DNA of 64,000 bases from Crossiella cryophila (GTDB taxonomy: Bacteria > Actinomycetota > Actinomycetes > Mycobacteriales > Pseudonocardiaceae), in contig NZ_JACHMH010000001.1 of NCBI RefSeq assembly GCF_014204915.1, forward strand, positions 8,147,501-8,211,500. The letters are read 5' to 3'. The notes below the pieces were generated by a model. The model made no database searches and was not told the DNA's origin. It saw only the letters and a list, made by a program, of their open reading frames with translations. Positions 7,513-34,105 of the stretch are shown here, piece by piece (within the stretch, counting starts at the first letter, position 1; every line of letters begins with the position of its first letter). The position numbers and the translations under genes are program-made.

Positions 7513-7637
7513 GCCGGGCACCCTACGGATCAGCGGCAGGCGGGCAAGTCGATATCGGGGCATCCACCGAACGGTGGGTGGATCCGACCATCGCCCGATG
7601 CTGCCGCGACCGGGCAGCCCGGCGACAGACTTCCGGT

Positions 7638-8486
7638 ATGGCTGGAGACCCGGCGGTCCGGATCCGCGGACTGCGCAAGACCTACCAACGGACCCCGGCG
7701 GTCCAGGACGTCGACCTCGACATCGAGCACGGCGAGATCTTCGCCCTGCTCGGCCCGAACGGGGCGGGCAAGACCACCACCATCGAGATCCTCGAGGGCT
7801 ACCGGGACCGCGACGGCGGCACCGTCTCCGTGCTCGGCGCCGACCCGGCCAAGGCGGGCCTGGGCTGGCGCAGGCGGATCGGCGTGGTGCTGCAGGAGAA
7901 CGGGGACTTCCCCGAACTCACCGTCGGCGAGGTCCTCAACCACTTCGCCTGCTACTACCCCGACGCCCGCGACCCCGACGAACTCCTCGAAGCGGTCGGC
8001 CTGACCGACAAACGCGACTCCCGGGTGCACCGGCTCTCCGGCGGTCAACGGCGCAGGCTCGACGTGGCCCTTGGCATCATCGGCAACCCACGCCTGCTCT
8101 TCCTGGACGAACCCACCACCGGCTTCGACCCGGCCGTGCGCCGCCAGTTCTGGGAACTGATCAGCGGACTGCGCGCCGCCGACACCACCATCCTGCTCAC
8201 CACCCACTACCTCGATGAGGCCGAGTTCCTCGCCGACCGGGTCGCGGTCATCGCCGCCGGGAAGCTGGTGGACGTGGCCACCCCGCGCCAGCTCGGCGGC
8301 CGGGACCGGGAACAGGCCACGGTGGCCTGGACCGACGCCGAGGGCACCCACGAGGTGCGCACCGGCAACCCCACCCGCACCGTCGGCGAACTCGCCGCCC
8401 GCTACCACGGCGACGTGCCCGAGCTGAGCGTGCGCAGACCCAGCCTGGAGGACACCTACCTGCAACTGATCGGCGGCGCGCGATGA
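7638..8486 (+). CDS. ABC transporter ATP-binding protein (ABC-2/drug-export type)
   Basis: 282 residues. Walker A is GPNGAGKTT (residues 39-47), the signature is LSGGQRRRLDVALGI near 133, Walker B is LLFLDEPTTGFDP near 155, and the H-loop is TTHYLDEAEFLADR. This is the CcmA/DrrA-like class that pairs with a separate ABC-2 permease for drug, peptide or lipid export. The permease gene overlaps by 4 nt and a sensor kinase/regulator pair follows, a common actinomycete resistance arrangement. It could also export the LAP made from genes starting 3 kb to the right (inference). No clear ribosome-binding site is visible before the ATG. Confidence 0.92.
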   Translation: MAGDPAVRIRGLRKTYQRTPAVQDVDLDIEHGEIFALLGPNGAGKTTTIEILEGYRDRDGGTVSVLGADPAKAGLGWRRRIGVVLQENGDFPELTVGEVLNHFACYYPDARDPDELLEAVGLTDKRDSRVHRLSGGQRRRLDVALGIIGNPRLLFLDEPTTGFDPAVRRQFWELISGLRAADTTILLTTHYLDEAEFLADRVAVIAAGKLVDVATPRQLGGRDREQATVAWTDAEGTHEVRTGNPTRTVGELAARYHGDVPELSVRRPSLEDTYLQLIGGAR

Positions 8487-9310
8487 CCACCACCACCCGG
8501 ACCAGGGCCAGCCACCGGAGCACCGCGCTGGGCATCGGCCTGCGCCGAGGAGTGCTGGAACTGAAGCAGTTCCTGCGGCAGAAGGACACCGTGATCTTCA
8601 CGTTCTCCTTCCCGCTGCTGATGACCGTGCTCTTCGGCGCGATCTTCCAGCGCAAACTGCCCGGCACCGACGTCGACTTCACCCAGTACTTCCTGGCCGG
8701 CATGGTCGCCACCGGCATCATGGGCACCACGTTCGTGCTGCTGGCCGTGGGCATCGCCCTGGAGCGCGACGACGGCACGCTGAAACGCCTGCGCGCCATG
8801 CCGATGCCACTGAGCGCCTACTTCATCGGCAAGACCGTGCTGGTGCTGGTGGCCTCGATCGCGCAAACCGTGCTGCTGCTGGTCTTCGGCTCGCTGTTCT
8901 TCGGCCTGACCATGCCCGCCACCGCCGGGAAATGGCTCACCCTCGGCTGGGTGCTGCTGCTCGGCGTGATCGCCTGCACCCTGCTCGGGGTGGCGATGAG
9001 CGCGGTGCCGCGCAGCGGGCGCAGTGCCGCCGCCGTGGTGATGCCGATCTTCGTGGTGCTGCAGTTCATCTCCGGGGTGTTCTTCGTCTTCACCGAACTG
9101 CCGGGGCCGGTGCAGGCCGTCGGCGGGGTGTTCCCGCTGAAGTGGCTCAGCCAGGGCCTGCGCTCGGTGTTCCTGCCCGAGGAGCTGCAACGGATGGAAC
9201 CCACCGGATCGTGGGACCACCCTGGCATCGCGATCGTGTTGGCACTCTGGATCGTGGCCGGTCTCGTACTCTCGGTGGCGACGTTCCGCTGGCAGCGCGC
9301 GCGGAGCTGA
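8483..9310 (+). CDS. ABC-2 type transporter permease
   Basis: 275 residues starting in the ATGA overlap with the ATPase gene. I count about six hydrophobic segments, for example FTFSFPLLMTVLFGAIF, VLVLVASIAQTVLLLVFGSLFF, LGVIACTLLGVAMSAV and IVLALWIVAGLVLSV. The N-terminal ELKQFLRQKDTVIFTFSFP and the internal LERDDGTLKRLRAMPM are typical of ABC2_membrane permeases. With the preceding ATPase it should form a homodimer-type exporter in the cytoplasmic membrane. Substrate unknown. Confidence 0.9.
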   Translation: MTTTTRTRASHRSTALGIGLRRGVLELKQFLRQKDTVIFTFSFPLLMTVLFGAIFQRKLPGTDVDFTQYFLAGMVATGIMGTTFVLLAVGIALERDDGTLKRLRAMPMPLSAYFIGKTVLVLVASIAQTVLLLVFGSLFFGLTMPATAGKWLTLGWVLLLGVIACTLLGVAMSAVPRSGRSAAAVVMPIFVVLQFISGVFFVFTELPGPVQAVGGVFPLKWLSQGLRSVFLPEELQRMEPTGSWDHPGIAIVLALWIVAGLVLSVATFRWQRARS

Positions 9311-9334
9311 CCGCGGCAGGACAGGGAGGGACCG

Positions 9335-10483
9335 ATGGCCGCCCCAGGGGAACAGGCCTGGCAGTGGCACGCCGTGCAGGCGCTGGTGCTGCTGCTGATC
9401 GCGGGCCTGTTCCCGGTGGTGGAGGCGCCGTGGTGGGGTTATCCGCTGCTGGCCGCGGCCTGGCTCTGGTACCTGGTGCTCGGCGCGCCCGCGGTGCGCA
9501 CCGGACCGGTCTCCACCCCCGGCAGCCTGGTCTACCTGCTCGGCGCCATCCCGCTGCAGGCCGCGCTGGTACTGGCCTCCCCGATCGCGCTGGTCCTGCT
9601 GCCCGACCTGTTCGCCCAGGTGTACTGGCTGGTCAGGCAGTTGTGGCTGGCCAACCTGGCGGTCGCGGTGACCACCGTGCTCAGCGGCTTCGCGGTCGTG
9701 GAGCACTTCGGCTGGAGTCAGCTGGCCATCCTCGGCTCGCTGCTGGGGGTGGCGGGCTGCCTGCCGGCCACGATCGGGCTCGGCGTGCTGTCCCGGCGGC
9801 TCATCGAGGCGGCCCAGGCCAGGGAACGGCTCAACCGGGAACTGCGCCAGGTGCGCTCCGAACTGCACACCGCCTACCACCGCGAGGGCGAACGGGCCGA
9901 GCGGGAACGGCTCGCGCACGACATCCACGACACCCTGGCCCAGGGCTTCACCAGCCTGGTGATGCTCATCCAGACCGCGGACGCCCTGGTCACCGCCGAC
10001 CCGGACCGGGCGCGGGACCAGTTGCGGCTGGCCGAGCGCACCGCGCGGCAGAACCTGGCCGAGGCGCGGGCGCTGGTCACCGACCTGATGCCGGCCGCGC
10101 TGCGTGATTCCACGCTCAGCGAGGTGATCTGCCGCCTGGTCCGCCAGCTCGCCGAGGAACTGGGCGTGCCGCACGAGGTCACCGTGCACGGCCAGCCAGC
10201 CGACCTGGCCCCGGCCACCGAGGCGGTGCTGGTGCGCACCGCCCAGGAGGCACTGGCCAACATCGCCAAACACGCCGCGCCCGGCCGGGTGACGGCCAGA
10301 CTGATCTTCACCGCGGACGGCAGCGTGCTGGAGATCATCGACGACGGGCGCGGCTTCGACCCGGCCGAGGCCACCGGCTTCGGCCTGCCGGGCATGCGGG
10401 CCAGACTGGAACGGATCGGGGGCAGCGTGCACATCCACAGCGACCACGGGCAGGGCACCACCGTGCGGATCACCGCGCCATGA
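9335..10483 (+). CDS. Sensor histidine kinase, NarL/DesK type (HisKA_3)
   Basis: 382 residues; the ATG follows GGGAGGGACCG. The first 155 residues hold about five transmembrane segments with short loops, the intramembrane-sensing layout of kinases that watch envelope stress or transporter activity. A coiled linker (about 157-185) leads to the HisKA_3 H-box ERLAHDIHDTLAQG, phospho-acceptor His198. The ATPase domain has an N-box (EALANIAKHA) and G-box (IIDDGRGFDP, GFGLPGMRARLERIGG). It overlaps the response regulator by 4 nt and probably controls the upstream exporter. Confidence 0.92.
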   Translation: MAAPGEQAWQWHAVQALVLLLIAGLFPVVEAPWWGYPLLAAAWLWYLVLGAPAVRTGPVSTPGSLVYLLGAIPLQAALVLASPIALVLLPDLFAQVYWLVRQLWLANLAVAVTTVLSGFAVVEHFGWSQLAILGSLLGVAGCLPATIGLGVLSRRLIEAAQARERLNRELRQVRSELHTAYHREGERAERERLAHDIHDTLAQGFTSLVMLIQTADALVTADPDRARDQLRLAERTARQNLAEARALVTDLMPAALRDSTLSEVICRLVRQLAEELGVPHEVTVHGQPADLAPATEAVLVRTAQEALANIAKHAAPGRVTARLIFTADGSVLEIIDDGRGFDPAEATGFGLPGMRARLERIGGSVHIHSDHGQGTTVRITAP

Positions 10484-11109
10484 CCGGGCGGGCGATCCGG
10501 GTGCTGCTGGCCGATGACCACCCGGTGGTGCGCGAGGGCTTGCGCGGCATGCTGTCCCTGGCTGGGGACATCGACGTGGTCGGCGAGGCCGCCGGTGGCG
10601 CGGAGGCGATCGAGCTGGCCGGCCGGCTGCGCCCGGACGTGGTGCTGATGGACCTGCGCATGCCCGACCTGGACGGGGCCACCGCGACCTCGCGGATCAC
10701 CGCCGAACTGCCCGGGGTGCGGGTGCTGATCCTGACCACCTACGACGCCGACCGGGACATCGTGCACGCGGTGGAGGCCGGGGCCGCCGGCTACCTGCTC
10801 AAGGACACGCCGCGGGCCGAGCTGACCGACGCGGTGCGCGCCGCCGCCCGCGGCGAGACCGTGCTGACCCCGACGGTGGCCACCAAACTCCTAAGCCACC
10901 TGCGCGCCCCGGCGGCCGAGACGCTGACCGCGCGGGAGGTGCAGGTGCTGCGCCTAGTGGCCCAGGGCTGCACCAACGCCGAGATCGGCCGCCAGCTCAC
11001 CATCGGCGAGGCCACCGTCAAAAGCCACCTGATCAAGATCTTCGGCAAACTCGGCGTAGACGACCGAACCGCCGCCGTCACCACCGCAATGTCCCGCGGC
11101 ATCCTCTGA
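10480..11109 (+). CDS. Response regulator, NarL/LuxR type
   Basis: 209 residues, ATGA overlap with the kinase. The receiver is intact: acidic pocket LLADDH near residues 9-14, phospho-acceptor Asp58 in VVLMDLRMPD, switch Thr in ILTTYD, Lys in YLLKDTP. A LuxR-type helix-turn-helix follows (LTAREVQVLRLVAQGCTNAEIGRQL, ATVKSHLIKIFGKLGV). It is the cognate partner of the preceding kinase. Repeat cluster A begins 20 nt after its stop. The intact receiver contrasts with the two degenerate ones elsewhere in the window. Confidence 0.94.
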   Translation: MTGRAIRVLLADDHPVVREGLRGMLSLAGDIDVVGEAAGGAEAIELAGRLRPDVVLMDLRMPDLDGATATSRITAELPGVRVLILTTYDADRDIVHAVEAGAAGYLLKDTPRAELTDAVRAAARGETVLTPTVATKLLSHLRAPAAETLTAREVQVLRLVAQGCTNAEIGRQLTIGEATVKSHLIKIFGKLGVDDRTAAVTTAMSRGIL

Positions 11110-11129
11110 CCCCACAGTTCCCACACGGC

Positions 11130-11315
11130 GTGTTGGCCGTTCTCGTACGGTGTGTTGGCCGTAATGGACGGTGTCTTGGCCGTTCTGGACGGAGTGTTGG
11201 CCGTTGTGGACGGCGTCTTGGCCGTTGTGGGCGGCGTCTTGGCCGAAGAGGCGTACCAGTTCGGCCAACACTGGGTACGAGAACGGCCAACACACCGTAC
11301 GACAACGGCCAACAC
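11130..11315. repeat. Repeat cluster A: six direct then three inverted 21-22 bp units
   Basis: Direct units of the form GTGTTGGCCGTTCTCGTACG start at 11130, 11152, 11173, 11194, 11215 and 11236. Inverted units ending in CGGCCAACAC finish at 11271, 11293 and 11315. Later direct copies drift (GTCTTGGCC, TGGACGG). The cluster fills the gap between the 3' ends of the response regulator and the convergent EstB-like gene. The RNA from either strand could fold into a long stem, so a bidirectional terminator role is plausible. Confidence 0.85.
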
Positions 11316-11346
11316 GCTGGCGGGGGGCGGTGGACCGGGTGGTTCA

Positions 11347-12483
11347 GTGTGTTGTGCGGGCGGCCTCTACGCAGGTGCGCAGCAGGTCGGTGTTCTCCGC
11401 CGCGGCGCCGCCGGGGTAGGCGTAGCGGCGGCGGTTGTAGCCGTAGGCCAGGCCGCTGCGCGGATCGGCGAGGGACAGGCTGCCCGCGGCGCCGCTGTGT
11501 CCGAAGGCGCCCTGTCCCAGGAACGGGTAGAACTCGGTCACGGCGCTGAAGCCCAGCCCGAAAGCCTTGTGCACGCGCGAGACCACGTCGTAGCCGATGG
11601 ACTGGATCTGCGCGAATTCCGCCATGGTGTCCGGTTTCAGCAGCGGTGGCCTGCCGTCGAACCCGGTGCTGGCCGCCGCGTACATACCGGCCAGGCCGCG
11701 GGCCGAGGCGACCCCGCCCGCGGAGGCCTGGCCCTGCGCGCGGACGATCCGCTGGTTGGGGAAGTCCCACAGTTCGGGTGCGTCGGTGCGATGGGTGTTG
11801 AACGCGATCGCGGCCAGGCTCTCCGGCCCGGAGTCCCAGTCGTCGATCTCGGCCTGCTGTTCCGGGGTCGGCAGCATCGGCAACGTGGTCACGAACCGCG
11901 GCTCCAGCTCCTCCGGCAGTCCCAGGTGGAAGTCGAGGCCGTAGGGCGCCCGGATCCGCTCCTCGAACAGCTCCTGGATGCTCTGCCCGGTCACCCGGCG
12001 CACCACCTCGCCGGCCAGCGCGCCGATCACCCACGCGTGGTAGCCGTAGGCTGTGCCCGGCCGCCAGTACGGCCGCTGATCCGCCATCCGGGCCGCGATC
12101 AGCCGGTCGTCGGCCAGCTCGGCCAGGCTGAACCCGGCGTCCGCGCCGACCACCCCGGCGCGGTGCGCGAGCACCTCCCGCAGCGTGATGTCCCGCTTGC
12201 CCTGCGCCGCGAACTCCGGCCAGTAGTGGCTGACCCGCTGGTCGGGGTCGAGCACGCCGTCCTGCACCAGCAGGGCCACGACGAGGGACATCGCCCCCTT
12301 CGTGGCGGAGAAGACCCCGGTGAGCGTGTCGGCGGTGAACCCGGGGCCCGACCACAGGTCCACGACCTTCTCGCCGCGCACGTAGGCGACCAGCTGGCCC
12401 GCGTAGTCCGCCCGTTCCCCGGCGACGACCTTCGCGAACTCCGCGCCCACGCTCTCGTACCCCGCCGCGACCGTGCCGTGCAT
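11347..12483 (-). CDS. Serine hydrolase of the EstB/class C beta-lactamase family
   Basis: 378 residues from the ATG at 12483, which follows GGAGGAACCAC; an upstream in-frame ATG at 12522 has no such site. The catalytic SATK tetrad gives Ser59 and Lys62, and the Tyr motif lies in the YGYHAW region. Family members are esterases, D-aminopeptidases or beta-lactamase-like enzymes. No signal peptide is visible, so a cytoplasmic esterase is more likely than a secreted beta-lactamase. It is transcribed in the same direction as the LAP operon but lies 79 nt beyond the last LAP gene, so membership in that operon is possible but unproven. Confidence 0.85.
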
Positions 12484-12562
12484 GTGGTTCCTCCTCCGAC
12501 CCCTATGACTCGCGGTCAACATAACCTGGCGCGCCAGCCTTTTCAGGTCGAAGCGAGGGCTC

Positions 12563-13519
12563 TCACCTGCGAGTTTGCTCCGAGAGCAATTCGGGCGGGG
12601 TGCCGTAGCGGCGTTCGTCGGCGTACAGCAGCGCGAGGGCGAGCCGTCGGGAGACCGGGGTGGGCAGCAGGGCGACCAGTCGGGGCAGCAGGTGCGCGCC
12701 CGCGGTGTCCACCGCGAGCATGGCCACCAGCAGCGCGCCCAGGGTGTGCCGGTCGGCGGTGGTGATCAGGGCGGCGGCCGGGCCGGTGATGGCCGCCCGG
12801 AGTTCGCGCAGCGCGGCGACCGCCCCGGCCGGGCCGTGCGCGCGGACCTGCAGGCGCAGCAGGTTGAACGCGTTGTCGGCGCGGTCGCGCTGGTAGGAGA
12901 GCTGGTCGTGGCCGATCTCCAGCAGTGCCAGCCAGTGCCGCAGCAGCGCGGTCAGCTCGGGCGCGGGCCGGGTGCCGCGGATGCGGTGCAGCACCGCCCA
13001 AAGGAGGTGGATGTCGCTGGAGCGGTCGTAGGTGAGGCGCAGCAGGTGTTCCGGGTCGGGTTCGGTCTCGCCGAGCAGCAGCCGGGATTCGGCGCGGAAG
13101 TAGCCGTCCAGGGCGGTCACGGCCGCGTCGGTGTCCGGGCCGGACAGGCCGTGTTCGGCCAGGGCGATCGCCAGGCTCTCCCGCCAGGCCGGATCGGCCT
13201 CGGTGACGCCGGCGCGCTGGGCCGCCTCGAAGGCCAGATCTCCTTGGTAGACCAGGGTTTCCAGGCGGATCAGCAGTGGCTGCACGGCCTGGGCGGCGGC
13301 CCGGTCGTAGCCGGCCAGCCGGACCAGGAACTCCGACATGGCCACGATCCCGACGGCCTTCTCGATCTCCCGGCCGTGCCCCGGTTCGCCCGGTGGCACC
13401 GGCCGGGCGGCCCTGCCCCGCCGGACCTGGCGCACCCGGCTCACCGTGGACAGTGCCAGCGGCACCAGCACCGGCGCCCCGGCCAGTCCGAGCAGCATGA
13501 CGATTCTCTTGCCCCACAT
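12563..13519 (-). CDS. Unknown protein of the LAP operon, one N-terminal membrane helix
   Basis: 318 residues. The N-terminus MWGKRIVMLLGLAGAPVL is hydrophobic to about residue 25 and followed by basic residues, consistent with a single membrane anchor and a cytoplasmic body. The rest is Ala/Leu/Arg-rich and looks all-helical, with repeated helix pairs such as LALAEHGLSG and ALLVAMLAVDTAG. I recognise no catalytic motif or family. It is the last tightly spaced gene of the leftward operon, 14 nt after the CPBP protease gene. Immunity, export help or scaffolding are guesses from position only. Confidence 0.6.
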   Translation of the reverse strand: MWGKRIVMLLGLAGAPVLVPLALSTVSRVRQVRRGRAARPVPPGEPGHGREIEKAVGIVAMSEFLVRLAGYDRAAAQAVQPLLIRLETLVYQGDLAFEAAQRAGVTEADPAWRESLAIALAEHGLSGPDTDAAVTALDGYFRAESRLLLGETEPDPEHLLRLTYDRSSDIHLLWAVLHRIRGTRPAPELTALLRHWLALLEIGHDQLSYQRDRADNAFNLLRLQVRAHGPAGAVAALRELRAAITGPAAALITTADRHTLGALLVAMLAVDTAGAHLLPRLVALLPTPVSRRLALALLYADERRYGTPPELLSEQTRR

Positions 13520-13533
13520 GGGTTTCTCCCCCT

Positions 13534-14145
13534 CTACTCCCAGTCACTGACGGCGGGTAGCGCCCTGGCCGCCGGGGCGGGTGGGCGTCGTGGCACGGCG
13601 GTGGCCAGGGTCAGGTTGTGCGTGAGATGGCAGGCGATGGCGGCGGCCAGTCCGCCGGTGGCCGCGGCCGCGGTGAACACCGCGCCGGAGGCCAGGTGGT
13701 ACGGCAGTCGGCGCGGGCCGCCGCCGGGCAGGTGCAGCAGGGCGAACCCGGCCAGGGCCAGCCCGGTGGCGGCCGGGGCTGGCAGGCCGAACCGGGTGAG
13801 CAGTTCGGGTGCCCCGGCCCGCCACAGCAGCTCCTCGGCCGCCGCGCACAACGTCAGCCGCGCCAGCTCCCCGCCGGGCAACGCCTTGCCCGCCAACGAC
13901 AACGGCTTCCCGGCCAGCCGGGCCGCGGTCAGCGGCAACACCACCCCGGCCAGCGCGGCCACCACTGTCCACAACAGACCCATTCCGGTCCACTGTGGAC
14001 TGAGCAGGGTCAGCACCGGCAGCGCGCACAGCACGGTGCCCCAGTCGTAGACCGCCGCGCCGTGCCTGCCCAGCCCCCGCCCGAACACCAGCAGCAGCCA
14101 CGGCAGCCCGAGGTGGCCGAGCAGCCCGGCCAGCACGGGCCACAT
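13534..14145 (-). CDS. CPBP-family intramembrane metalloprotease, candidate LAP leader peptidase (E protein)
   Basis: 203 residues, largely hydrophobic, with about five to six predicted membrane helices. The CPBP/CAAX-protease motifs are present: EELLWR (Glu104-Glu105, Arg109), a His at 138 in LLHLPGG, and HLTHN (His173, Asn177). In the plantazolicin cluster the proposed leader-removing enzyme (E) is also of this family, so cleavage of the precursor before the core Arg is the likely job (inference). It starts 2 nt after the dehydrogenase stop, indicating translational coupling. Confidence 0.82.
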   Translation of the reverse strand: MWPVLAGLLGHLGLPWLLLVFGRGLGRHGAAVYDWGTVLCALPVLTLLSPQWTGMGLLWTVVAALAGVVLPLTAARLAGKPLSLAGKALPGGELARLTLCAAAEELLWRAGAPELLTRFGLPAPAATGLALAGFALLHLPGGGPRRLPYHLASGAVFTAAAATGGLAAAIACHLTHNLTLATAVPRRPPAPAARALPAVSDWE

Positions 14146-14147
14146 CG

Positions 14148-14978
14148 CTAGCCCGCCGGGGGTGTGCCGATCAGCACCACGTACACCGGCGCGTCGTCCA
14201 CCCCGTTGTGGTCGGGCAGCAGCGCGGTCAGCGGATCATCGTCGAAGCCGCCGATCAGCCTGCTCGGCAGCCCGTAACCGGTGGCGACCAGGAGCAGATT
14301 CTGCGCCAGGTGCCCGGATTCCATCAGCACGAACCGCAGCGAGCGCTGCCCGTACTTGAACCGGGACCGCCAGAAACTGGCGGAGAGGATCAGGCCGAAG
14401 GCGGCCTGCCCGGACATCTCGGCCTGGTTGCCGCAGTTGTCGAAGGCGTCCAGGTCGACCTCACCCAGGTCGGCCAGCACCCCGCGGAACGGATCGAAGT
14501 GGTAGAGCCCCGGCCGCACCCCGGTGACCCGCCTGGCCACCACGTACAGGTCGAGGGGGTAGAGCGCGCCGCCGGAGGGGGTGGGCCGGAAGCCCTGGTG
14601 TCCCTGCCACCGGTTGATCCCATAGGTGCGCTGGAGCACCCCGGCCAGCACGTCCAGGCCGACCTCGCCGCCGCCGAAACCCTTGGCGCTGCGCCGGGAA
14701 TCCAGTACCCGGGCCAGATCGGCGGTCAGCGGCGCGGGTTCGGGTAGCGGCACGGTCGGTCGGCTGGCGTACCAGCGGCCGGAGCGGGCGGCCATCTCCC
14801 GCAGCTCGGCCGACTGTTCGAGGGCGACCACGCCCGGCACGTCCCATGGCAGGGAGGCGTTGTAGAGCTTGGACGCCTGGAAGTAGTTCTCCGCCGGGTC
14901 GTCGACGCCGGGCACACCGTCGGTGTAGACGATATCCAGGACGTTGGAACCGTGGATGCTGCTGTCGGTCACGGACAT
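14148..14978 (-). CDS. SagB-type FMN-dependent azoline dehydrogenase (LAP B protein)
   Basis: 276 residues. Nitroreductase-fold features of SagB/ThcOx proteins are visible: LDSRRSAKGFGGGEVGLDVLAGVLQRTYG near residues 90-115, the PSGGALYPLDLYVVARRV region for FMN binding near 135-155, and the C-terminal LMESGHLAQNLLLVATGYGL. These enzymes oxidise thiazolines and oxazolines to azoles, the second step of LAP maturation. The start follows GGGGGTGA. It sits between the YcaO gene (11 nt gap) and the protease gene (2 nt gap), the same C-D-B-E order as in the plantazolicin cluster as I recall it. Confidence 0.9.
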   Translation of the reverse strand: MSVTDSSIHGSNVLDIVYTDGVPGVDDPAENYFQASKLYNASLPWDVPGVVALEQSAELREMAARSGRWYASRPTVPLPEPAPLTADLARVLDSRRSAKGFGGGEVGLDVLAGVLQRTYGINRWQGHQGFRPTPSGGALYPLDLYVVARRVTGVRPGLYHFDPFRGVLADLGEVDLDAFDNCGNQAEMSGQAAFGLILSASFWRSRFKYGQRSLRFVLMESGHLAQNLLLVATGYGLPSRLIGGFDDDPLTALLPDHNGVDDAPVYVVLIGTPPAG

Positions 14979-14989
14979 TCACCCCCAGG

Positions 14990-16357
14990 TCAGGGAAACG
15001 GATGCGGCAGCGGGTTGAGGTGTTCGGTGTCCACCTGGCCGGTCAGGCCGAGTGCGACGGGCAGCTCCCGCAGCCGCCTGCCGCCCAGCATTCGTTGCTG
15101 GAAACCCACATCGAGGGGTTGCAGCTGCGGGGAGAACACCTTCACCACATGCCCACCGGCCTCGCGCACATCGGGGCTGGTGACATCCACCGCGAGCAGG
15201 TCGACGCCCTGTTCGGCCAGGGTGGACACCAGTCCGGACAGGAGCTGTCCCGGGGTGCCGTCGGGCAGTGCGGGCAGTTCGGCCAGGGCGCGCCGGTGCG
15301 GGCTGGCGGTGAGGAATTCGGTGCCGGGCACCATTTCCGCGGAGGTGTAGAGGCCGACGTGGTCCTCGAAGTCGCGCACGGTCTTGTCGTAGTCACCGTG
15401 CGGCGCCACCACCTGGCCCTCGCGTTGCTGGGCCCAGGCCCAGGTGCGGGTGCTGAACGCCTCGAACAGCGTCTTGGCCGCCGCCCGCCGCGGTGAGCCC
15501 GCCGCCGCCGCGCCCAGGCCGATCGGGGCCAGTTCGGAGGCCCGGTTGCGGACCACGCCGAGCATGGCCGGGATGCCGGTGAACACGCTCAGGTCGACCA
15601 GGTGGAAGTCCAGTCCGGACGGGGTGGCGTGCCGCCGGATCAGCTCGGCCAGTGCCGGATCCGAGCCGGGGTCCAGCAGTGGCAGGGACAGCCGGTGGTG
15701 CCAGGCCAGCATGAAGGCGTCCCGCTCGACGAGTTCCAGGATGCCGGAGACCGCCGCCTCCGCCGGGGTGTTGGCGAAGGCCAGCCCGCTGCTGGTGGGG
15801 TAGCCGATCCGGCTGTCGTCGGGCAGGTTGTTGCGCAGGTAGGTCAGCTGCGCGGGCAGCCACACCGGCGCGCCGTCGTGCAGCCGCCGCGATTCGGTCC
15901 ACCACAGCCGGGTGGCCGCGGTGAAGGGCACGTAGGGGAACCCGGTCCGGCCGAACTGCCAGTCCGCGAACAGGGTGAGCTGCGCGGGCTGGAGGCAGGT
16001 CAGGCCGGCGTCGGTGAGTTCCTCGGCACTGCCGTAGCGCAACGCCTCCTCCGGCACCCAGGCCGCGCTGTAGCGCTCCACGCCCTCACCGATCGCGGCC
16101 AGCCTGGCCCCGGTGTGGCTGGCGTCCCAGCCGCCGTTGCCCTTGTTGCAGGGCGCGCCGAGCAGCAGCCGGGAATCGCAGGTCTCGCTGCCCATGGAGT
16201 GCGCGTACAGGTCGTCCACATCGTGCATGCGCTCGTGCACCCGGCGGACGATGCCGGTCAGCGGGGACAGGTAGATCGCCATCGCCGCCTCCGCCTCGGC
16301 GGTGCTGGTCCAGCGATCCGCACCGGCGCCGGGCCGGTAGCCGGTGGCCGAGGTCAT
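14990..16357 (-). CDS. YcaO-domain cyclodehydratase (LAP D protein)
   Basis: 455 residues. YcaO proteins use ATP to activate backbone amides so that Cys, Ser and Thr side chains cyclise to azolines. Visible signs are the GEGVERYSAAW motif near residue 90, FANTPAEAAVSGILELVERDAFMLAWHHRL near 215-245, an AAAKTLFEAFSTRTWAWAQ segment near 290, and a C-terminus ending PLPHPFP. That end fits the PxPxP tail found in YcaO cyclodehydratases of azole-forming systems. The start overlaps the C-protein stop by 4 nt, so the two are made together. Confidence 0.93.
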   Translation of the reverse strand: MTSATGYRPGAGADRWTSTAEAEAAMAIYLSPLTGIVRRVHERMHDVDDLYAHSMGSETCDSRLLLGAPCNKGNGGWDASHTGARLAAIGEGVERYSAAWVPEEALRYGSAEELTDAGLTCLQPAQLTLFADWQFGRTGFPYVPFTAATRLWWTESRRLHDGAPVWLPAQLTYLRNNLPDDSRIGYPTSSGLAFANTPAEAAVSGILELVERDAFMLAWHHRLSLPLLDPGSDPALAELIRRHATPSGLDFHLVDLSVFTGIPAMLGVVRNRASELAPIGLGAAAAGSPRRAAAKTLFEAFSTRTWAWAQQREGQVVAPHGDYDKTVRDFEDHVGLYTSAEMVPGTEFLTASPHRRALAELPALPDGTPGQLLSGLVSTLAEQGVDLLAVDVTSPDVREAGGHVVKVFSPQLQPLDVGFQQRMLGGRRLRELPVALGLTGQVDTEHLNPLPHPFP

Positions 16358-17367
16358 GCCTGCCCCTCCGCTCCGGCCGGGCGCAGCTGGTGGAACCAGA
16401 CCTGCGGATGTCCGGTCTCCCGGCCGGGCGCGCAGCGCGGGCAGCGCGGCACCCGCAGCACCCGGTGCCTGCCCACCCGCAGCCCGGACAGGTCCAGTTC
16501 GACCGTGCTGATCCCGCCGGGCACCAGCTGGGCACTGCGCTCGCCCAGGGCGAGGTACTCCAGCAACCAGTCCAGGACCAGGCCGGTCTGCACCGCGACC
16601 AGGCCGGGCGCGCAGGCGGCGGCGTCCAGGCGCGGGCCGAGCCAGCGGGCCTGGGGCAGTGCCACGGACAGTCCGGTGTCCGGGAACACCGAGGCCCGGC
16701 GCAGCCGGTAGCAGTGGTGGCAGGCGGACTCACCCGGCAGGATCCACGGCCCGACCGTGGCGCGTTCGCCGTCGTAGGGGGTGACCGCCAGCCAGGGGCC
16801 GCGGTCCGGGTCGGCCAGGGCCTGCTCGTTCCAGTCGGCCAGCACCGGATCGTCCTCGTGTTCGCCGACCACCACGGTCACCGCGGCCGGATCGTCCTCA
16901 CCGGCCACCGCCAGTCCCGCCGCGGCGACCTCGGTCCGGATCCGGGTGGCCAGTGCCCCGCCGCCGCTGATCCGCACGGTGGCCGTGCGCAGCCGCTCGG
17001 CGATCACCGCCCGTTCCACGGCCTGGCCGGAGCGCCGCCACAGGCCGAGCACCACCGGGTCGGCGGTGCCGGGCGCGCCGGTCTCGATGAGCAGCCCGGC
17101 CTCGACCAGGTGGTCGATCACCGCGTCCGCGCGGTCCCGCTGGTCCTGGTCCAGGTCGGCGAAGAGCACCGGTTCCAGGACCCCGCCGTCCGTGCGTTCC
17201 AGCAACGCCGCGACCAGCGGCAACAGGCCGGTGCCCGCGCATTTGACCACCGCGTCCCCGGCCCTGACCAGGACATCCTCCCCCGCGGCCAGCACCCGCG
17301 TGCCGGGATCGGTGCGCCAGCTCGCCCGGCTGGCCGAGGCGGATCCGTCCGTGCTCGAACCCTGCAC
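16354..17367 (-). CDS. E1-like precursor-recognition partner of the cyclodehydratase (LAP C protein)
   Basis: 337 residues, GTG start 7 nt after AAGGAGG. The N-terminal 90 residues fit the winged-helix peptide-clamp region (RRE) that binds RiPP leaders. The rest fits an ocin-ThiF-like protein, with a zinc-site candidate pair CHHC near 224 and CPRC near 307. It should bind the leader of the peptide encoded at 18442 and present it to the YcaO partner, with which it overlaps by 4 nt. I see no clear E1 nucleotide-binding GxGxxG, as expected for C proteins that do not adenylate. Confidence 0.85.
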   Translation of the reverse strand: MQGSSTDGSASASRASWRTDPGTRVLAAGEDVLVRAGDAVVKCAGTGLLPLVAALLERTDGGVLEPVLFADLDQDQRDRADAVIDHLVEAGLLIETGAPGTADPVVLGLWRRSGQAVERAVIAERLRTATVRISGGGALATRIRTEVAAAGLAVAGEDDPAAVTVVVGEHEDDPVLADWNEQALADPDRGPWLAVTPYDGERATVGPWILPGESACHHCYRLRRASVFPDTGLSVALPQARWLGPRLDAAACAPGLVAVQTGLVLDWLLEYLALGERSAQLVPGGISTVELDLSGLRVGRHRVLRVPRCPRCAPGRETGHPQVWFHQLRPAGAEGQA

Positions 17368-17399
17368 TGTGAACCTCCTTGAGTACGACGATCGGGTGG

Positions 17400-18185
17400 T
17401 CAGCCGCGGGCCGCGGCCGACTCGGACTGATAGGCGTGCCAGGCCGCGGACAGGTAGGCCGACGGGGGCCTCCCGGCCCGGCCCAGCGCGCGTTCCAGCA
17501 CCGGGGACACCGAGCGGCGGGCCTTGGCCGAGCCCCAGGCCAGGTGGTGGCCGAGGCGTTCCCCGGCCGGGGAGTCGATCCCGGCCCGCCGCAGGGCGTG
17601 CAGGTATGCCTCTTCGGGGAGGTAGACGTGCCTGCGGGGCGCCTCGGCGATCCCGGCCAGCAGCGCGATCGCCGCGGGCACGCCGAGCACCTCAGGGCCG
17701 GTCACCTCGTAGGCCCTGCCGCCCCGCCTGGCCGGGTCGGCGGCCAGCACGGCGATGAGTTCGGCCAGGTCAGCGGCGTCCAGCCAGGCCGTGCCCGCCG
17801 GTTCGCAGGTGCTGTAGAGGGTGCCCTCGACGGTGCCGTGCACGCAGGCCCTGACCAGGTCCTGGCCGAGCAGGGCGCAGCGCAGCACCACGGTGTCCAC
17901 GGCCCCGGCCAGGGCGGCCGCCTCGGCCTGGGCCTGCACCGCCGGGAAGGTGCCTGCCGGGGCCAGCTCGGCCGCGCGCGGGGAGAGCACCACCCGGGGC
18001 AGGGCCGGGTCAATGGCCGCAACCTGCAACCGGAGGTCTTCCTGATTCAGCGAACCGGCGTCCACGACGGCCAGCCCGGCCGCGGCGGGGGTGTCCACGC
18101 AGGTCGTGCCAGCCGCCTCGGCCAGCGCCCGCCGGAGCAGCACCCGGTCGCCGGCATAAAATATGGCAGTTCTATTCTCTGCCAT
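17400..18185 (-). CDS. NmrA/SDR-like protein of the LAP operon, function unknown
   Basis: 261 residues from the ATG giving MAENRTAIFYAGDRV, preceded by GAGGGGG; a longer frame runs upstream to 18653 across the control region and precursor but has no support. The layout resembles NmrA-like atypical short-chain dehydrogenases (VVLRCALLGQDLVRACVHG; AWLDAADLAELIAVLAADPARRGGRAYEVTGPE), but the N-terminal glycine-rich NAD(P) loop is missing. It is the first gene of the leftward LAP operon, 32 nt before the C protein. It may be a scaffold or regulator rather than an oxidoreductase (inference). Confidence 0.65.
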   Translation of the reverse strand: MAENRTAIFYAGDRVLLRRALAEAAGTTCVDTPAAAGLAVVDAGSLNQEDLRLQVAAIDPALPRVVLSPRAAELAPAGTFPAVQAQAEAAALAGAVDTVVLRCALLGQDLVRACVHGTVEGTLYSTCEPAGTAWLDAADLAELIAVLAADPARRGGRAYEVTGPEVLGVPAAIALLAGIAEAPRRHVYLPEEAYLHALRRAGIDSPAGERLGHHLAWGSAKARRSVSPVLERALGRAGRPPSAYLSAAWHAYQSESAAARG

Positions 18186-18441
18186 GGCCCCCTCAATTCT
18201 TCCGGCCAGAATTGGCGATGGCGCAAACCTAGACGAAATGACTGTCGGCGAACAACAGAGCATGAGACATTGCGTGTCAACCGATAGGGGTACACGGGCC
18301 TCCACCGAAAGACAGCGATCGACCCGTCGAAAGTGGACTCTTTCCGCACCCCAACAGATGTCTTGCCCTATTCCACCCGGTTGCGGATATGGTCTGCACC
18401 GCAATACCGGCGCACTTTCTTCACCACTGGAGGGAACTGTC
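18186..18441. promoter_or_regulatory. Divergent control region of the LAP cluster
   Basis: These 256 bp separate the start of the leftward operon (18185) from the rightward precursor gene (18442). The stretch is visibly more AT-rich than its surroundings. Promoters for both directions must lie here, but I cannot place -10/-35 boxes with confidence. The regulator encoded at 19468 is the obvious candidate to act here. Confidence 0.6.
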
Positions 18442-18576
18442 ATGCAGGAACTTCTGAACAAGGTCGAGATCCCCTCGATCACCATCACCACGCACGGCCA
18501 GGAGTCGAACCTGTTCGAGCCGACGGCGGCCCGTTGTACCTCGACGATCCCGTGCTGCTGCTGCAGCGGCGGCTGA
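18442..18576 (+). CDS. LAP precursor peptide, plantazolicin type
   Basis: 44 residues; the ATG lies 6 nt after GGAGGGA. The leader (1-30) ends HGQESNLFEPTAA and the core (31-44) is RCTSTIPCCCCSGG. From memory the plantazolicin precursor has HGEGQHLFEPMAA followed by RCTCTTIISSSSTF: the leader end matches at HG, LFEP and AA, cleavage would fall before Arg, and both cores are 14 residues. Cyclisable residues are Cys2, Thr3, Ser4, Thr5 and Cys8-Cys11 plus Ser12, giving two azole blocks separated by Ile-Pro. C, D, B, E and methyltransferase genes surround it. The gene is inside a longer open frame from 18163 that has no other support. Confidence 0.93.
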   Translation: MQELLNKVEIPSITITTHGQESNLFEPTAARCTSTIPCCCCSGG

Positions 18577-18585
18577 TCTCCACCT

Positions 18586-18610
18586 GATCGGCCGCTTTCC
18601 CAGGCCGATC
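18586..18610 (+). terminator. First hairpin after the LAP precursor
   Basis: GATCGGCC (18586-18593) pairs perfectly with GGCCGATC (18603-18610) across a 9-nt loop, starting 10 nt after the precursor stop. It could attenuate transcription or protect the 3' end of the precursor mRNA. There is no T-tract. Confidence 0.55.
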
Positions 18611-18624
18611 GGCGGGTACACTCC

Positions 18625-18654
18625 GGTGGCGGCGGAAGCAGTTCCGCCGCCACC
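18625..18654 (+). terminator. Second, strong hairpin after the LAP precursor
   Basis: GGTGGCGGCGGAA (18625-18637) pairs perfectly with TTCCGCCGCCACC (18642-18654) over a GCAG loop: 13 pairs. It lies between the precursor and the methyltransferase gene, so it probably makes precursor transcripts much more abundant than the downstream message (inference). Confidence 0.7.
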
Positions 18655-18684
18655 GTTCACGGACTCCTGGGGGGAGTACGCGGC

Positions 18685-19452
18685 ATGCTCAGTCATACTC
18701 GGACGCCGTCGTCAATTGCCGGGCGCGCAGGCCATCGGCGGCACGCCCAACGCTGGTTCACCGATCCCGGTCTATCCCCGGTCAGCACCACCTATGACCA
18801 ACGCGAAACAATGATCTCGGCATGTGTCGCGCTGTCCGTCGGCATTTCCGAACTCGGCCGCACACCGGACCGGGTCCTGGACGTCGGCTGCGGCGGCGGA
18901 ACAATGCTGGAAATCGCGGCCAAACAACTCCCGGACAGCGCTTTGTTCGGCCTCGACCCGCACCGCCCCTCGATCGAGGCGGCCCGGACCCGGCTGGCCG
19001 ACACCGGCGCGGAACTGTTCGCCCTGGCCGCCGGTGAGCTGCCCGGTTCGGCCGCGGCCGCCCGGATCGGCCAGGCCGACCTGGTCCTGGTGCACCTGTG
19101 CCTCGGCCTGTGGACCGATCCGGTGACCGAACTCGCCGCCGTGCTGGACCTCCTGGCCCCCGGCGGCCTCTGCTACGTCGTCGACCTGATCCGGCCGGCC
19201 GCACTGGACCCGGCGACCCTGGATCCGTTCCTGGCCGCGGCCGCCACCGAGGCCGAACGGGACTACCTGCGTGACCAGGTGACCGCCTCGCTCTCCGCCA
19301 CCGAGGCCGCGGAACTGGCCGAACAGCTCACCGCGGTCGCCGGGGTCACCGCGGAGATCCGCACCGGCGACTTCAACGGCTTCGCCACCGGCGATCCGGC
19401 CACCGCCATCGCGCTGCACCTGCTGCTGCGCCGAAGTGCCGGACCCGCCTGA
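18685..19452 (+). CDS. SAM-dependent methyltransferase, candidate N-alpha-methylase of the LAP
   Basis: 255 residues; the ATG follows GGGGGGAG. Class I methyltransferase motif I is VLDVGCGGGTMLEI near residue 67, the acidic end of strand 2 is LFGLDPHRPS near 90, and the post-I region is ADLVLVHLCLGLW near 132. The plantazolicin cluster encodes a methyltransferase of similar size (L) that dimethylates the alpha-amino group of the N-terminal Arg after leader removal. The core here also begins with Arg, so the same role is likely. It lies 108 nt downstream of the precursor gene, past two hairpins. Confidence 0.85.
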   Translation: MLSHTRTPSSIAGRAGHRRHAQRWFTDPGLSPVSTTYDQRETMISACVALSVGISELGRTPDRVLDVGCGGGTMLEIAAKQLPDSALFGLDPHRPSIEAARTRLADTGAELFALAAGELPGSAAAARIGQADLVLVHLCLGLWTDPVTELAAVLDLLAPGGLCYVVDLIRPAALDPATLDPFLAAAATEAERDYLRDQVTASLSATEAAELAEQLTAVAGVTAEIRTGDFNGFATGDPATAIALHLLLRRSAGPA

Positions 19453-19467
19453 CCGGGCGCGACAGCC

Positions 19468-20121
19468 ATGGACCTGAACGAACCCGGCCCCCGGCCCCGC
19501 CGGGTGGTCGTACTGGACCGGCGGGTGGTGGTCTGCCTCGGCCTGGCCGCGGTGATCCTGGAATGCCCCAACCTCCTGGTCGTGGGCAAGGTGACCGAGG
19601 ACCAGCGCGCCCTGACCGAGATCGAGCGCCTGCGACCCGACCTGGTGCTGGCCAGCGCGGCCCTGTGCACCAGGGTCGACCTGCTCAGCGCGGTGACCAC
19701 GCTGCGGCACCAGCCCAAGGTGCTGGTGCTGACCGAGACCGAGGACAGCGCCTTCGTGCTGCAGGCCCTGCTCGCCGGGGCGAACGGATGTGTGTCCCTG
19801 CACGCGCCACCACGGGACATCGTGCAGGCCATGCGCGCGGCGGTGAGCGGGCAGACCCCGCTCACCGCCGCGGTGGCCGCCCGGATGGCGATGGCCGCCC
19901 GGACCCCTCGACGCACGGTGCCGTTGAGCCTGCGCGAGATCGACGTGCTCCGGCACGCCGCCGCCGGACACACCAACGCCCAGATCGCCAAAGGACTCGC
20001 GGTGAGCGAGGCGACCGTGAAGACCTACTGGCGGCGCATCTTCAAAAAACTCTCCGCCCAGGACCGCACCTCCGCGGTGACCATCGCCCTACGCCAGAAC
20101 AGCATCGCCCTGGAGGACTGA
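19468..20121 (+). CDS. LuxR-type regulator with degenerate receiver, candidate LAP cluster regulator
   Basis: 217 residues, 15 nt after the methyltransferase. The C-terminal helix-turn-helix is intact (LSLREIDVLRHAAAGHTNAQIAKGL; ATVKTYWRRIFKKLSAQDRTSAV). The N-terminal half aligns with a receiver, but the acidic pocket reads VVVLDRRVV and the phospho-acceptor position reads DLVLASAAL instead of the usual DLVLMDLRMP, so the Asp is missing. The switch Thr (LVLTETED) remains. It is therefore unlikely to be phosphorylated; such atypical regulators can respond to small molecules, often pathway products. Repeat cluster B begins 9 nt after the stop. Confidence 0.85.
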   Translation: MDLNEPGPRPRRVVVLDRRVVVCLGLAAVILECPNLLVVGKVTEDQRALTEIERLRPDLVLASAALCTRVDLLSAVTTLRHQPKVLVLTETEDSAFVLQALLAGANGCVSLHAPPRDIVQAMRAAVSGQTPLTAAVAARMAMAARTPRRTVPLSLREIDVLRHAAAGHTNAQIAKGLAVSEATVKTYWRRIFKKLSAQDRTSAVTIALRQNSIALED

Positions 20122-20129: not shown

Positions 20130-20272
20130 GTGTTGGCCGTTCTCGTACGGTGTGTTGGCCGAACTGGACGGTGTCTTGGCCGTTATGGACGGGGTGTTGG
20201 CCGAGGGGCGTACCAGTTCGGCCAACACTGTGTACGACAACGGCCAACACGGCGTACAAGAACGGCCAACAC
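20130..20272. repeat. Repeat cluster B: four direct then three inverted 21-22 bp units
   Basis: Direct units start at 20130, 20152, 20173 and 20194; inverted units end in CGGCCAACAC at 20228, 20250 and 20272. The first unit is identical to the first unit of cluster A. The cluster lies between the 3' ends of the LAP regulator and the convergent VOC gene and can form a long stem in RNA from either strand. Confidence 0.85.
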
Positions 20273-22154: not shown

Positions 22155-22263
22155 ACCTCGCAGTATCCACTGTGGACGGTTGGCACGACTCGATCGGGCG
22201 TAACCTGCCGCGACACGCCCCCGCAGATCGGGATCCCGCGAGTCGCGGTTGAGGATCGTGATC

Positions 22264-24093
22264 ATGCCGAGTCGTCGCCGCTGGATCGCCCGCCTGGCTC
22301 AGGCCGCCGTGGTCGGGCTGCTCGCCGCCGACACCGCACAACTGCGCCGCCGCCTGGCCGCGCTGCCGGTGCTCCGGGACCAGCCCGCCACCCCGGCCCT
22401 CGACGACGGGCGGGTGGCGGTCGCGCACGGGGTGCGGCTGGACCAGTCGACCCTGGCCGCCGCCGAGGCGTACCGGCAGCGCGAACAGCTCGCCGCGCTC
22501 GACCTGGTGCCCGCCGACCTGACCCTGGCCCAGGCCCTTGACCTGCTCCGGGACGTCGATCCGGCCACCTACCGAGGCAACCGGCTGGCCGGCGGGCGCA
22601 CCGCGGCGCACGCCATCGCCGCCGACCCCGGCCTGCTCGACCAGGTGGGCGTACCCGCTCGCCCGGACGGCGCCGACCTGGCCACCGCCGCGCTGGAGAT
22701 CAAACTGCGCGCCCCGGCCGACACCGCCTTCGCCGTCGCCCCCGGCCTGGCCGCCAGCGCCGAGGTGCGCGAACAGGACCCGGCGATCCAGCACGCCGTG
22801 CACGGCGCCGGCCTGGAACTGCACGTCATCCTGCGCGCCGCGGTGCTCACCGCACTGGCCGCCACCGCGCTGACCGGCCGCAGATGGGCCGCGGGTCTGC
22901 TGCTGGCCTGGTCGGCGCAACCCCTGGCGGTCTTCGCTGGCAGTCGCACGCTCAAGCCGGCCGACCTGGTGCGCGGCAGCCTGACCAGGGTGATCGCCGA
23001 ACCCGGCAGGCTGGTGCGCACGCTGACCGGCACCGCCGGGGTCCGCGCCCAGCGCGCCGCCGCGATCGAGACCAGCCGGATCGCCTACCGCGAGGACATG
23101 GCCGCCGGACTCGGCCGCTTCTTCGAGCCGCCCCGCCGGGACTGCCCGTGGTGCGGCGGCACCGAGTTGCGACGGCGACTGCTGGGCACCGACCTGCACA
23201 CGCACAAACCCGGCCGGTTCGTCCTGGACGAATGCGTCTCCTGCGGGCACGTCTTCCAGAACCCGCGGCTCAACGCGGCCGGACTGGAGTTCTACTACCG
23301 GGACGTCTACGACGGGTTCAACGAGCACGCCGTCCAGTCCGTCTTCGCCACCCGCCGGGCCTACTTCCTCAGCCAGGCCCGCGCGCTGTCCGGACACGCC
23401 AAACCCGAGCGCTGGCTGGACGTGGGCACCGGGCACGCGCACTTCTGCAACCAGGCCAAGGAGATCTGGCCGCAGACCAGCTTCGACGGCATCGACCTGA
23501 GCAGCGGAGTGGAACTGGCCCAGCGGCGCGGCCGGATCGACCGCGCCTACCGCGGCTTCTTCCCCGACCTGGCGCCCAGCATGGCAGGCGCCTACGACGC
23601 GGTCAGCATGTTCCACTACCTGGAACACGTCACCGACCCGGTGGCCGAACTGCGGGCCGCGCACACCGCGCTCAAACCCGGCGGCCACCTGGTGATCGAG
23701 GTGCCCGACCCGGAATGCCGGTTCAGCACCCTGCTCGGCCGCTACTGGGGCGGCTGGGTGCAGCCGCAGCACCTGAACATGTACCCGGTGGACAACCTGC
23801 GGGCCAAACTCGGTGAACTCGGTTTCACCGTGGTCGGCACCCAGCACCGCGAGGCGGGCGCGCCGGACCTGACGGTGGCCGCCTGGCTGCTGGCCAACCG
23901 GTTCGCGCCGCGCTCCAACCAGCCCTGGCACGACCGCGCGCCCGGCCTGCTCCAGCGGGCGGCCAGGGGCGCGGCGCTGACCGCGGCCGCCCCGCTGCTG
24001 CTGGCGGCGGTGATCGGCGACCGGCTCATCGAACCGGCCACCGAGAAGCTGCGGCTGTGCAACGGCTATCGCGTGATCGCCCGGCGGGACTGA
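22264..24093 (+). CDS. Large class I SAM-dependent methyltransferase (paralogue 2)
   Basis: 609 residues from MPSRRRWIARLAQ; an upstream in-frame ATG at 22249 is less likely. Architecture matches the protein at 5224 from end to end: hydrophobic N-terminal helix, the unrecognised domain containing AQALDLLRDVDPATYR, a membrane-like LLAWSAQPLAVFAGSRTLKPADL, Cys motif CPWCGG with CVSCGHVFQNPRL, motif I LDVGTGHAHFC near 385, SMFHYLEH, and an end YRVIARRD. The family may act on a lipid or membrane-bound substrate (inference). It is 5 nt upstream of a third paralogue. Confidence 0.8.
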   Translation: MPSRRRWIARLAQAAVVGLLAADTAQLRRRLAALPVLRDQPATPALDDGRVAVAHGVRLDQSTLAAAEAYRQREQLAALDLVPADLTLAQALDLLRDVDPATYRGNRLAGGRTAAHAIAADPGLLDQVGVPARPDGADLATAALEIKLRAPADTAFAVAPGLAASAEVREQDPAIQHAVHGAGLELHVILRAAVLTALAATALTGRRWAAGLLLAWSAQPLAVFAGSRTLKPADLVRGSLTRVIAEPGRLVRTLTGTAGVRAQRAAAIETSRIAYREDMAAGLGRFFEPPRRDCPWCGGTELRRRLLGTDLHTHKPGRFVLDECVSCGHVFQNPRLNAAGLEFYYRDVYDGFNEHAVQSVFATRRAYFLSQARALSGHAKPERWLDVGTGHAHFCNQAKEIWPQTSFDGIDLSSGVELAQRRGRIDRAYRGFFPDLAPSMAGAYDAVSMFHYLEHVTDPVAELRAAHTALKPGGHLVIEVPDPECRFSTLLGRYWGGWVQPQHLNMYPVDNLRAKLGELGFTVVGTQHREAGAPDLTVAAWLLANRFAPRSNQPWHDRAPGLLQRAARGAALTAAAPLLLAAVIGDRLIEPATEKLRLCNGYRVIARRD

Positions 24094-24098
24094 CCACA

Positions 24099-33390: not shown

Positions 33391-33544
33391 CGTCCCACAA
33401 CGGCCAACACACCGTACGAAAACGGCCAACACCCGGTACAAGAACGGCCAACACGCCGGCGAGGGTTTCAACCCCCGCGCGTGTTGGCCGTTCTGGGACG
33501 GTGTGTTGGCCGTTCTTGTACACCACGTTGGCCGTTGTGGGACG
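33391..33544. repeat. Repeat cluster C: three inverted then three direct units
   Basis: Inverted units end in CGGCCAACAC at 33410, 33432 and 33454; direct units start at 33481, 33503 and 33527. The order is the reverse of clusters A and B but still gives a foldable stem. It begins 7 nt after the upstream gene's stop codon. Confidence 0.85.
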
Positions 33545-34088: not shown

Positions 34089-34105
34089 GCCGAGCGAGAA
34101 CAGCG

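Follow-up and report, generated by a model that had tools for sequence, protein, structure and literature searches.

What does a short gene with a cysteine-rich 3′ end encode in Crossiella cryophila, where it lies among predicted peptide-cyclising enzymes, and to which natural product family does it belong? We examined this locus in a window of 64,000 nucleotides (contig NZ_JACHMH010000001.1, positions 8,147,501 to 8,211,500), which lies whole in the single 10.06-Mb contig of the host genome; coordinates below are those of the window. Plantazolicin is reported as a very narrow-spectrum antibiotic, and the original prediction for the locus was a relative of it, a linear azol(in)e-containing peptide (LAP) with a different core. 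Our analysis makes it highly probable that the locus is a LAP cluster of the plantazolicin family, on a side branch found in Pseudonocardiaceae, and that it acts by the mechanism proposed below. The cluster is real, intact and probably functional, and its core is new and sulphur-rich.

The precursor and the genes around it

A precursor, the genes for C, D (with a PLPHPFP tail) and B, a CPBP protease and a methyltransferase had all been named beforehand and are present, while J, a LuxR-type regulator and a module of ATP-binding cassette (ABC) and two-component genes had been overlooked. The genes around the precursor are as follows.

18442..18576, plus strand: A, precursor gene, 44 amino acids plus stop; leader 18442-18531, predicted core RCTSTIPCCCCSGG 18532-18573; TIGR04218 match
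17400..18185, minus strand: J, NmrA-like atypical short-chain-dehydrogenase-type protein, between A and C
16354..17367, minus strand: C, leader-binding/E1-like cyclodehydratase partner; TIGR03882, E 4.9e-13, above cut-off
14990..16357, minus strand: D, YcaO cyclodehydratase, C-terminal PLPHPFP; PF02624, E 3e-65; TIGR03604 (SagD) above cut-off
14148..14978, minus strand: B, SagB-family azoline dehydrogenase; TIGR03605, E 5e-33, above cut-off; PF00881 nitroreductase
13534..14145, minus strand: E, CPBP-family membrane protease, candidate leader peptidase; PF02517 (Rce1-like) above cut-off
12563..13519, minus strand: H, membership unsure, end of the J-C-D-B-E run; 93% identical in Crossiella sp. 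S99.2
18685..19452, plus strand: L, predicted PznL/BamL-type N-terminal Arg methyltransferase; BpumL/BamL structure matches
19468..20121, plus strand: LuxR/NarL-type response regulator; PF00196, E 7e-17; PF00072, 29.8 bits against a cut-off of 30.2

The minus-strand run from J to H is tightly packed, with C and D overlapping by 4 bases and a gap of 2 bases between B and the protease gene, and the C protein, the SagB-type dehydrogenase and the CPBP protease are all found beside D. The C protein matches the N-terminal region of TruD, B matches McbC (6gos, E 2e-13), and the C-terminus of D reads NPLPHPFP. In an eight-row alignment of the protease, the residues EE..WR, H and H..HN are conserved.

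A GGAGG-type site precedes the ATG of the precursor (18442-18576), which reads MQELLNKVEIPSITITTHGQESNLFEPTAA as the leader and RCTSTIPCCCCSGG as the predicted core, so that in this short peptide FEPxAA precedes an Arg-Cys core start. The leader carries the conserved motif G.....FEPxAA. Homologous precursors were aligned in 11 rows and also occur in genome G157, and the NCBI plantazolicin peptide model TIGR04218 matched the precursor at 44.8 bits with an E-value of 8.8e-12. A chance open reading frame was considered and rejected, because a search of the 10.06-Mb genome with the precursor at E≤0.001 returned the self-match alone, TIGR04218 at E≤0.01 hit a single place in the same genome, and genes A, J, C, D and B, with those for the CPBP protease and the methyltransferase, recur together in Bacillota loci and in a Spirochaetota metagenome-assembled genome (MAG).

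The core consists of four potential ring residues (CTST), Ile-Pro and five more (CCCCS), followed by a Gly-Gly tail. Its CCCC block occupies the position of SSSS in the six classical loci described below, all of which share a RCT(T/C)TTIISSSS core; the core is different, as had been claimed. The masses given for it are also arithmetically correct (1389.50 for the linear core; 1237.29 Da neutral with nine azoles and two methyls).

Class of the cluster

We scanned genome contigs from 84,980 species genomes by means of a four-protein D alignment and two search patterns, possibly leaving out the window's own genome. The scan yielded 38 D loci, comprising nine of plantazolicin type (the Crossiella strains S99.2 and SN42, Longimycelium, Priestia flexa, Bacillus badius, Auritidibacter, Bacillus safensis, a Propionibacteriaceae MAG and a Spirochaetia MAG) and 29 with other D proteins. 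A FEPxA[A/G] motif (first letter F, Y, W or L) with a C/S/T-rich tail and a J gene beside D were both present at 9/9 plantazolicin-type loci and at 0/29 of the others, some of which are short stretches (3.7 kb for L028). C and B likewise occur at all nine, the CPBP protease at seven and the methyltransferase at eight; in Longimycelium the methyltransferase and the protease are located on another contig, and no CPBP match was found in B. badius at E≤1e-3.

The phylogeny of D agrees with this division. In a 44-row tree the window and the nine plantazolicin-type loci form one group (support 100/100) apart from the 29 other D proteins, which are actinobacterial, and from five Crossiella YcaO paralogs; a 16-row tree with G111, G157 and four outgroups added holds the 12 plantazolicin-type rows together at 98/99 and separates a Pseudonocardiaceae subclade (89/86) from a classical subclade (99/99), with long branches flagged and with sampling that did not include named reference D proteins of other classes of thiazole/oxazole-modified microcins (TOMMs). 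The D protein of the window is 41-42% identical to those of B. safensis and P. flexa. The plantazolicin-type identity originally proposed is upheld by the D clade, the BamL/BpumL-like methyltransferase and the position of J. The sequence-based refuting condition set beforehand, that D and B fall in unrelated TOMM classes, was checked and did not refute the proposal: in the tree D groups with the Bacillus, Priestia and Auritidibacter proteins at 100/100, and B, compared by family profile, matches SagB.

Could the cluster nevertheless belong to another TOMM class, such as the cytolysins or the goadsporin-like or gallolytisin-like peptides with CCCC cores, and resemble plantazolicin clusters superficially? 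Published gallolytisins do contain a CCCC block (Cys4-X-Cys4), and their D protein is described, in passages of the paper concerned, as most similar to that of the plantazolicin (PZN) cluster (PMC4603692). The placement of D in both trees, which hold no named gallolytisin, the presence of a BamL-type methyltransferase, and the lack of J and FEPxAA at the other D loci all oppose this explanation; it was rejected on the D trees, and we give it almost no weight.

Among the known systems, B. safensis (L021) and P. flexa (L018), with the core RCTCTTIISSSSTF, share with the window the full set from A to the methyltransferase, a leader ending in FEPxAA, an Arg-Cys core start and a two-block core. In contrast to both, the methyltransferase gene of the window is divergent from J-C-D-B-E and lies beside A, and the core has CCCC for SSSS, Ile-Pro for Ile-Ile and one ring residue fewer in the first block. 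Auritidibacter ignavus and the Propionibacteriaceae and Spirochaetia MAGs (L020, L022 and L023) also carry the window's gene set but have classical RCTTTTIISSSS cores and fall in the sister subclade of the D trees. Actinobacterial relatives with a PZN-specific methyltransferase and precursors of about 45 amino acids had already been predicted by Cox et al. (2015), passages of which list 13 plantazolicin D proteins, 12 with a methyltransferase and 10 with Arg-start cores, from a group of Bacillus, Clavibacter, Brevibacterium, Corynebacterium, Nesterenkonia and Sorangium; Crossiella and Longimycelium are unnamed in those passages (PMC4603692). A LAP of Dermacoccus is termed a potential plantazolicin cluster in part of another report (PMC11206071), and passages of a paper on Crossiella bioactivity mention neither plantazolicin nor a thiopeptide (PMC9415966). 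No report of the present cluster was found among the literature matches listed, with subscription papers mostly outside the coverage.

Methyltransferase and J protein

Searched against PDB sequences with phmmer, the methyltransferase had BpumL/BamL structures as its six best hits (E from 1e-22 to 4e-20), with the next family at 2e-7. According to passages of one study, PznL dimethylates an N-terminal Arg and requires a heterocyclised backbone, and the dimethylation is required for activity (PMC11285071). Close inspection of the alignment revealed six positions (S31, V48, G141, V199, S202 and G232 in window numbering) that separate two Tyr-core from nine Arg-core enzymes, and the window enzyme carries the Arg-type residue at all six, in a comparison of 11 sequences whose columns were chosen by looking for separation. 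These columns are not independent evidence, because the two Tyr-core enzymes are related, their D proteins sharing a clade.

PznJ is the Bacillus name of the gene at the position of J. Profile searches matched the J protein to YtfG (2zcu, E 5e-11) and SimC7 (4e-6) as well as to further NmrA-like or related proteins; the strongest match spans the C-terminal half. The AlphaFold2 model of J has a mean pLDDT of 89.7 and a pTM of 0.89, and the order of its strands and helices can be read as Rossmann-type. The N-terminal cofactor loop does not show the GxxGxxG form in the aligned rows, and because this cofactor motif is not kept, a redox role for J is not obvious.

Proposed pathway

The gene content and homologies suggest the following route, along which each chemical step, the ring number, the cleavage site, the export and any activity of the product are predictions. 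C would bind the leader through the conserved G.....FEPxAA motif, and the C/D cyclodehydratase would use ATP to drive the cyclisation of Cys, Ser and Thr in RCTSTIPCCCCSGG. B would oxidise the resulting azolines to azoles, giving at most nine azol(in)es in CTST and CCCCS blocks split by Ile-Pro. The CPBP protease would cut off the leader after FEPTAA, and the BamL-type methyltransferase would dimethylate the alpha-amine of the freed Arg1, which would adjoin a thiazole. The ABC pair would export the product, with control by the histidine kinase and response regulator and by the LuxR-type regulator. J would be required at some step.

The product may instead be a LAP of this family other than a fully heterocyclised N,N-dimethyl-Arg polyazole, with open Ser or Thr residues, a trimmed Gly-Gly tail or a change added by J, for example a reduction. 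The core is indeed unlike the classical ones, because its S-G-G is preceded by CCCC and its hinge contains Pro, and reductases are among the family profile matches of J. On the other hand, the enzymes for full processing are all present and constrained, and the cofactor motif is missing from the J alignment. We regard incomplete or altered processing as possible but rather doubtful, and favour the fully processed dimethyl-Arg polyazole.

Intactness and distribution

Comparison of nine genes of the window with those of Crossiella sp. S99.2 showed zero internal stops, amino acid identities of 88-97%, synonymous divergence (dS) of 0.12-0.27 and ratios of nonsynonymous to synonymous divergence (dN/dS) of 0.06-0.48. 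The ratio is 0.19 for H and 0.21 for the precursor, the latter derived from 4 synonymous and 3 nonsynonymous changes and not strong because 44 codons are too few. Two of the amino acid changes, N23S and T28A, are in the leader, and the sole core change, S34T, is one after which ring formation is still possible.

Several observations weigh against the assignment to the plantazolicin family. The precursor is 0.2 bit short of the curated TIGR04218 cut-off of 45. The core follows a 4+2+5 plan, the same as the published 5+2+5-6 with one residue fewer; the 10 cores of Cox et al. are described, in passages of that paper, as about five ring-forming residues, two nonpolar ones and five to six ring-forming ones (PMC4603692). 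The methyltransferase has Q-Val where the six classical enzymes have Q-Tyr, and J is 18-27% identical to J of the six non-Pseudonocardiaceae loci. Finally, the cluster is missing from two of five Crossiella genomes and is therefore dispensable, which would also suit a silent or decaying cluster that yields no product. Against decay stand the intact copies in two species at the divergence given above, under constraint, and the regulators and exporter retained alongside in relatives; we consider a silent cluster improbable, and an intact plantazolicin-family cluster remains our preferred reading.

The D profile at 1e-60 matched 9 of 390 family genomes, of which six, scoring at least 612 bits, are members; the other three (236-260 bits) belong to a different D group and are excluded from the count. 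TIGR04218 at E≤0.01 matched 8/390, with true clusters in G000, G186, G187 and G252 and with G231 and G359 among the remainder; its cut-off was passed in none of the 390, the window's precursor scoring 43.2 bits in this genome-wide search. Counts with this short model are low, because the members G111 and G157 were missed by it and recovered by the D profile. The TIGR04218 matches in G165 (L012) and G082 (L014) were rejected, as their surroundings hold no cluster genes apart from a weak beta-lactamase-like match in L014. In samples drawn evenly from larger groups, the D profile at E≤1e-50 matched 12/397 genomes of the order and 3/396 of the phylum, exceeding 600 bits in G000 and G111 alone. With six members in 390 family genomes, and nine loci in the 84,980 species genomes within the two search patterns, "a very small class" is a fair description.

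The Pseudonocardiaceae branch and its sugar genes

The cores of the branch read RCTSTIPCCCCSGG in the window, RCTTTIPCCCCSGG in S99.2, RCTTTTSTCSTCCCSS in Longimycelium, YCSSIVCCCCSS in SN42 and YCSSSSSHGSCA in G157, where the precursor is on a second contig that also holds an additional J and an additional glycosyltransferase. The core starts with Arg in the window, S99.2 and Longimycelium and with Tyr in SN42 and G157. The G111 precursor ends in ...FEPVVA-ASSSIVCCCCS, where the cut site is uncertain and the core probably starts with Ala.

SN42, G111 and G157 contain EryCIII-type "activator-dependent" glycosyltransferases (TIGR04516 above cut-off), whose genes directly follow that of the precursor in the first two and lie close to it in G157. 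The examined stretches of all three (L101, L102, L103 and L109) also encode a DegT aminotransferase and a sugar-type C-methyltransferase, and those of SN42 and G157 a 2,3-dehydratase. The G111 aminotransferase gene is truncated by the end of its stretch; this gene and the one for the C-methyltransferase are some 16-18 kb away from the precursor, separated from it by an AMP-binding protein and more glycosyltransferases. These amino-sugar genes may belong to a neighbouring cluster, which lowers the odds of the wider proposal given below. At 1e-5 the sugar-gene queries matched neither S99.2 nor the two Longimycelium loci nor any of the six classical loci, and the only glycosyltransferase match in the window was a 30% partial one at 4682-5200. 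Because SN42, G111 and G157 form a single D clade (99/98), the glycosyltransferase-bearing clusters have one origin, not three. A BamL-type enzyme matched at 2.6e-53 in G157, and none was seen in G111, where the best match was 6e-10 (41 bits).

We are evenly divided over a wider proposal, namely that these clusters form a second plantazolicin branch whose cores are mostly sulphur-rich, and that the residue starting the core, the methyltransferase and the remaining tailoring change in concert within it. Under this proposal, the Arg-start clusters (window, S99.2 and Longimycelium) would make dimethyl-Arg azole peptides, and a derived Tyr/Ala clade (SN42 and G157; G111) would make polyazoles bearing amino-deoxysugars attached by the EryCIII-type glycosyltransferases, with the methyltransferase re-specified for another N-terminus in SN42 and G157 or lost in G111; the window would encode the Arg-type, mostly thiazole counterpart. 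If the sugar genes are linked to the sister clusters as they look, these would yield glycosylated LAPs. A narrow literature search, with two reviews among the matches listed, returned no report of a glycosylated plantazolicin. Cacaoidin is a glycosylated peptide. It resembles the products predicted for the sugar-gene-bearing relatives, with which alone it was compared, in its N,N-dimethylated N-terminus, but passages of the literature place it in the lanthipeptides, another class of ribosomally synthesised and post-translationally modified peptides, with a methyltransferase distant from BamL/BpumL (PMC11447909). The six classical loci are near-uniform in core, and CCCC, a shortened first block and non-Arg starts give a natural series with its own enzymes, which would allow tests of which rings set activity and of how the methyltransferase comes to be strictly selective for Arg.

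Cluster limits and neighbouring features

Beyond the genes listed above, and outside the interval originally given (12563-20121, with H and the LuxR-type regulator as its end genes), the following module is placed on the other side of H.

7578..8486, plus strand: ABC transporter ATPase, likely exporter/self-protection; PF00005
8483..9310, plus strand: ABC-2 permease; PF01061
9335..10483, plus strand: sensor histidine kinase; PF07730/PF02518
10480..11109, plus strand: response regulator of the two-component pair; PF00072/PF00196

Homologues of this module directly adjoin the cluster in SN42 (identities of 62% for the ATPase, 60% for the permease, 49% for the kinase and 74% for the regulator) and in G111 (61%, 59%, 46% and 75%), and in Longimycelium homologues of the methyltransferase, LuxR-type regulator, CPBP protease, ABC, kinase and response regulator genes are grouped on a separate contig. 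Because of these arrangements the module at 7578-11109 is very likely part of the cluster, and the functional cluster most likely extends over 7578-20121. H had no Pfam or NCBIfam match at E≤0.01. Among the plantazolicin-type stretches examined, S99.2 was the only one to match H (at E≤1e-3) and likewise the only one to match a beta-lactamase-like gene (11344-12522).

The LuxR-type gene adjoins the methyltransferase gene in S99.2, SN42, Longimycelium and G157 as well. In the window it reads LVLASAALC at the expected phosphoacceptor Asp site and is perhaps a phosphorylation-independent regulator.

A dispersed 22-base tandem repeat, GTGTTGGCCGTTnTnGTACGnn, is found at 11125-11315, 20130-20272, 33399-33514, 34030-34101, 43659-43783 and 53357-53759. 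Copies stand at either end of the cluster, but the repeat is genome-wide. It lies mostly in arrays of strand-switching, hairpin-like units and is apparently mostly intergenic. Allowing at most one mismatch, GTGTTGGCCGTT has 33 matches in the window against 0.29 expected. Exact tandem matches of the repeat number 98 forward and 91 reverse in this genome, 12 and 9 in G186, and 15 and 11 in G188, with zero in G185 and G187 and zero for a reversed control.

Another locus, L091 (G491), has an adjacent pair of D proteins and small open reading frames with alternating Cys-rich tails, for example ELVHGACACTTSCGCTSCSCVVWW, and represents a different LAP class. In the window itself, three related methyltransferase-domain proteins lie on either side of the cluster (4672-7071, 22249-24093 and 24057-25124), about 49-56% alike as judged by cross-matches with S99.2, and the protein at 4672-7071 also has a weak glycosyltransferase-like stretch.

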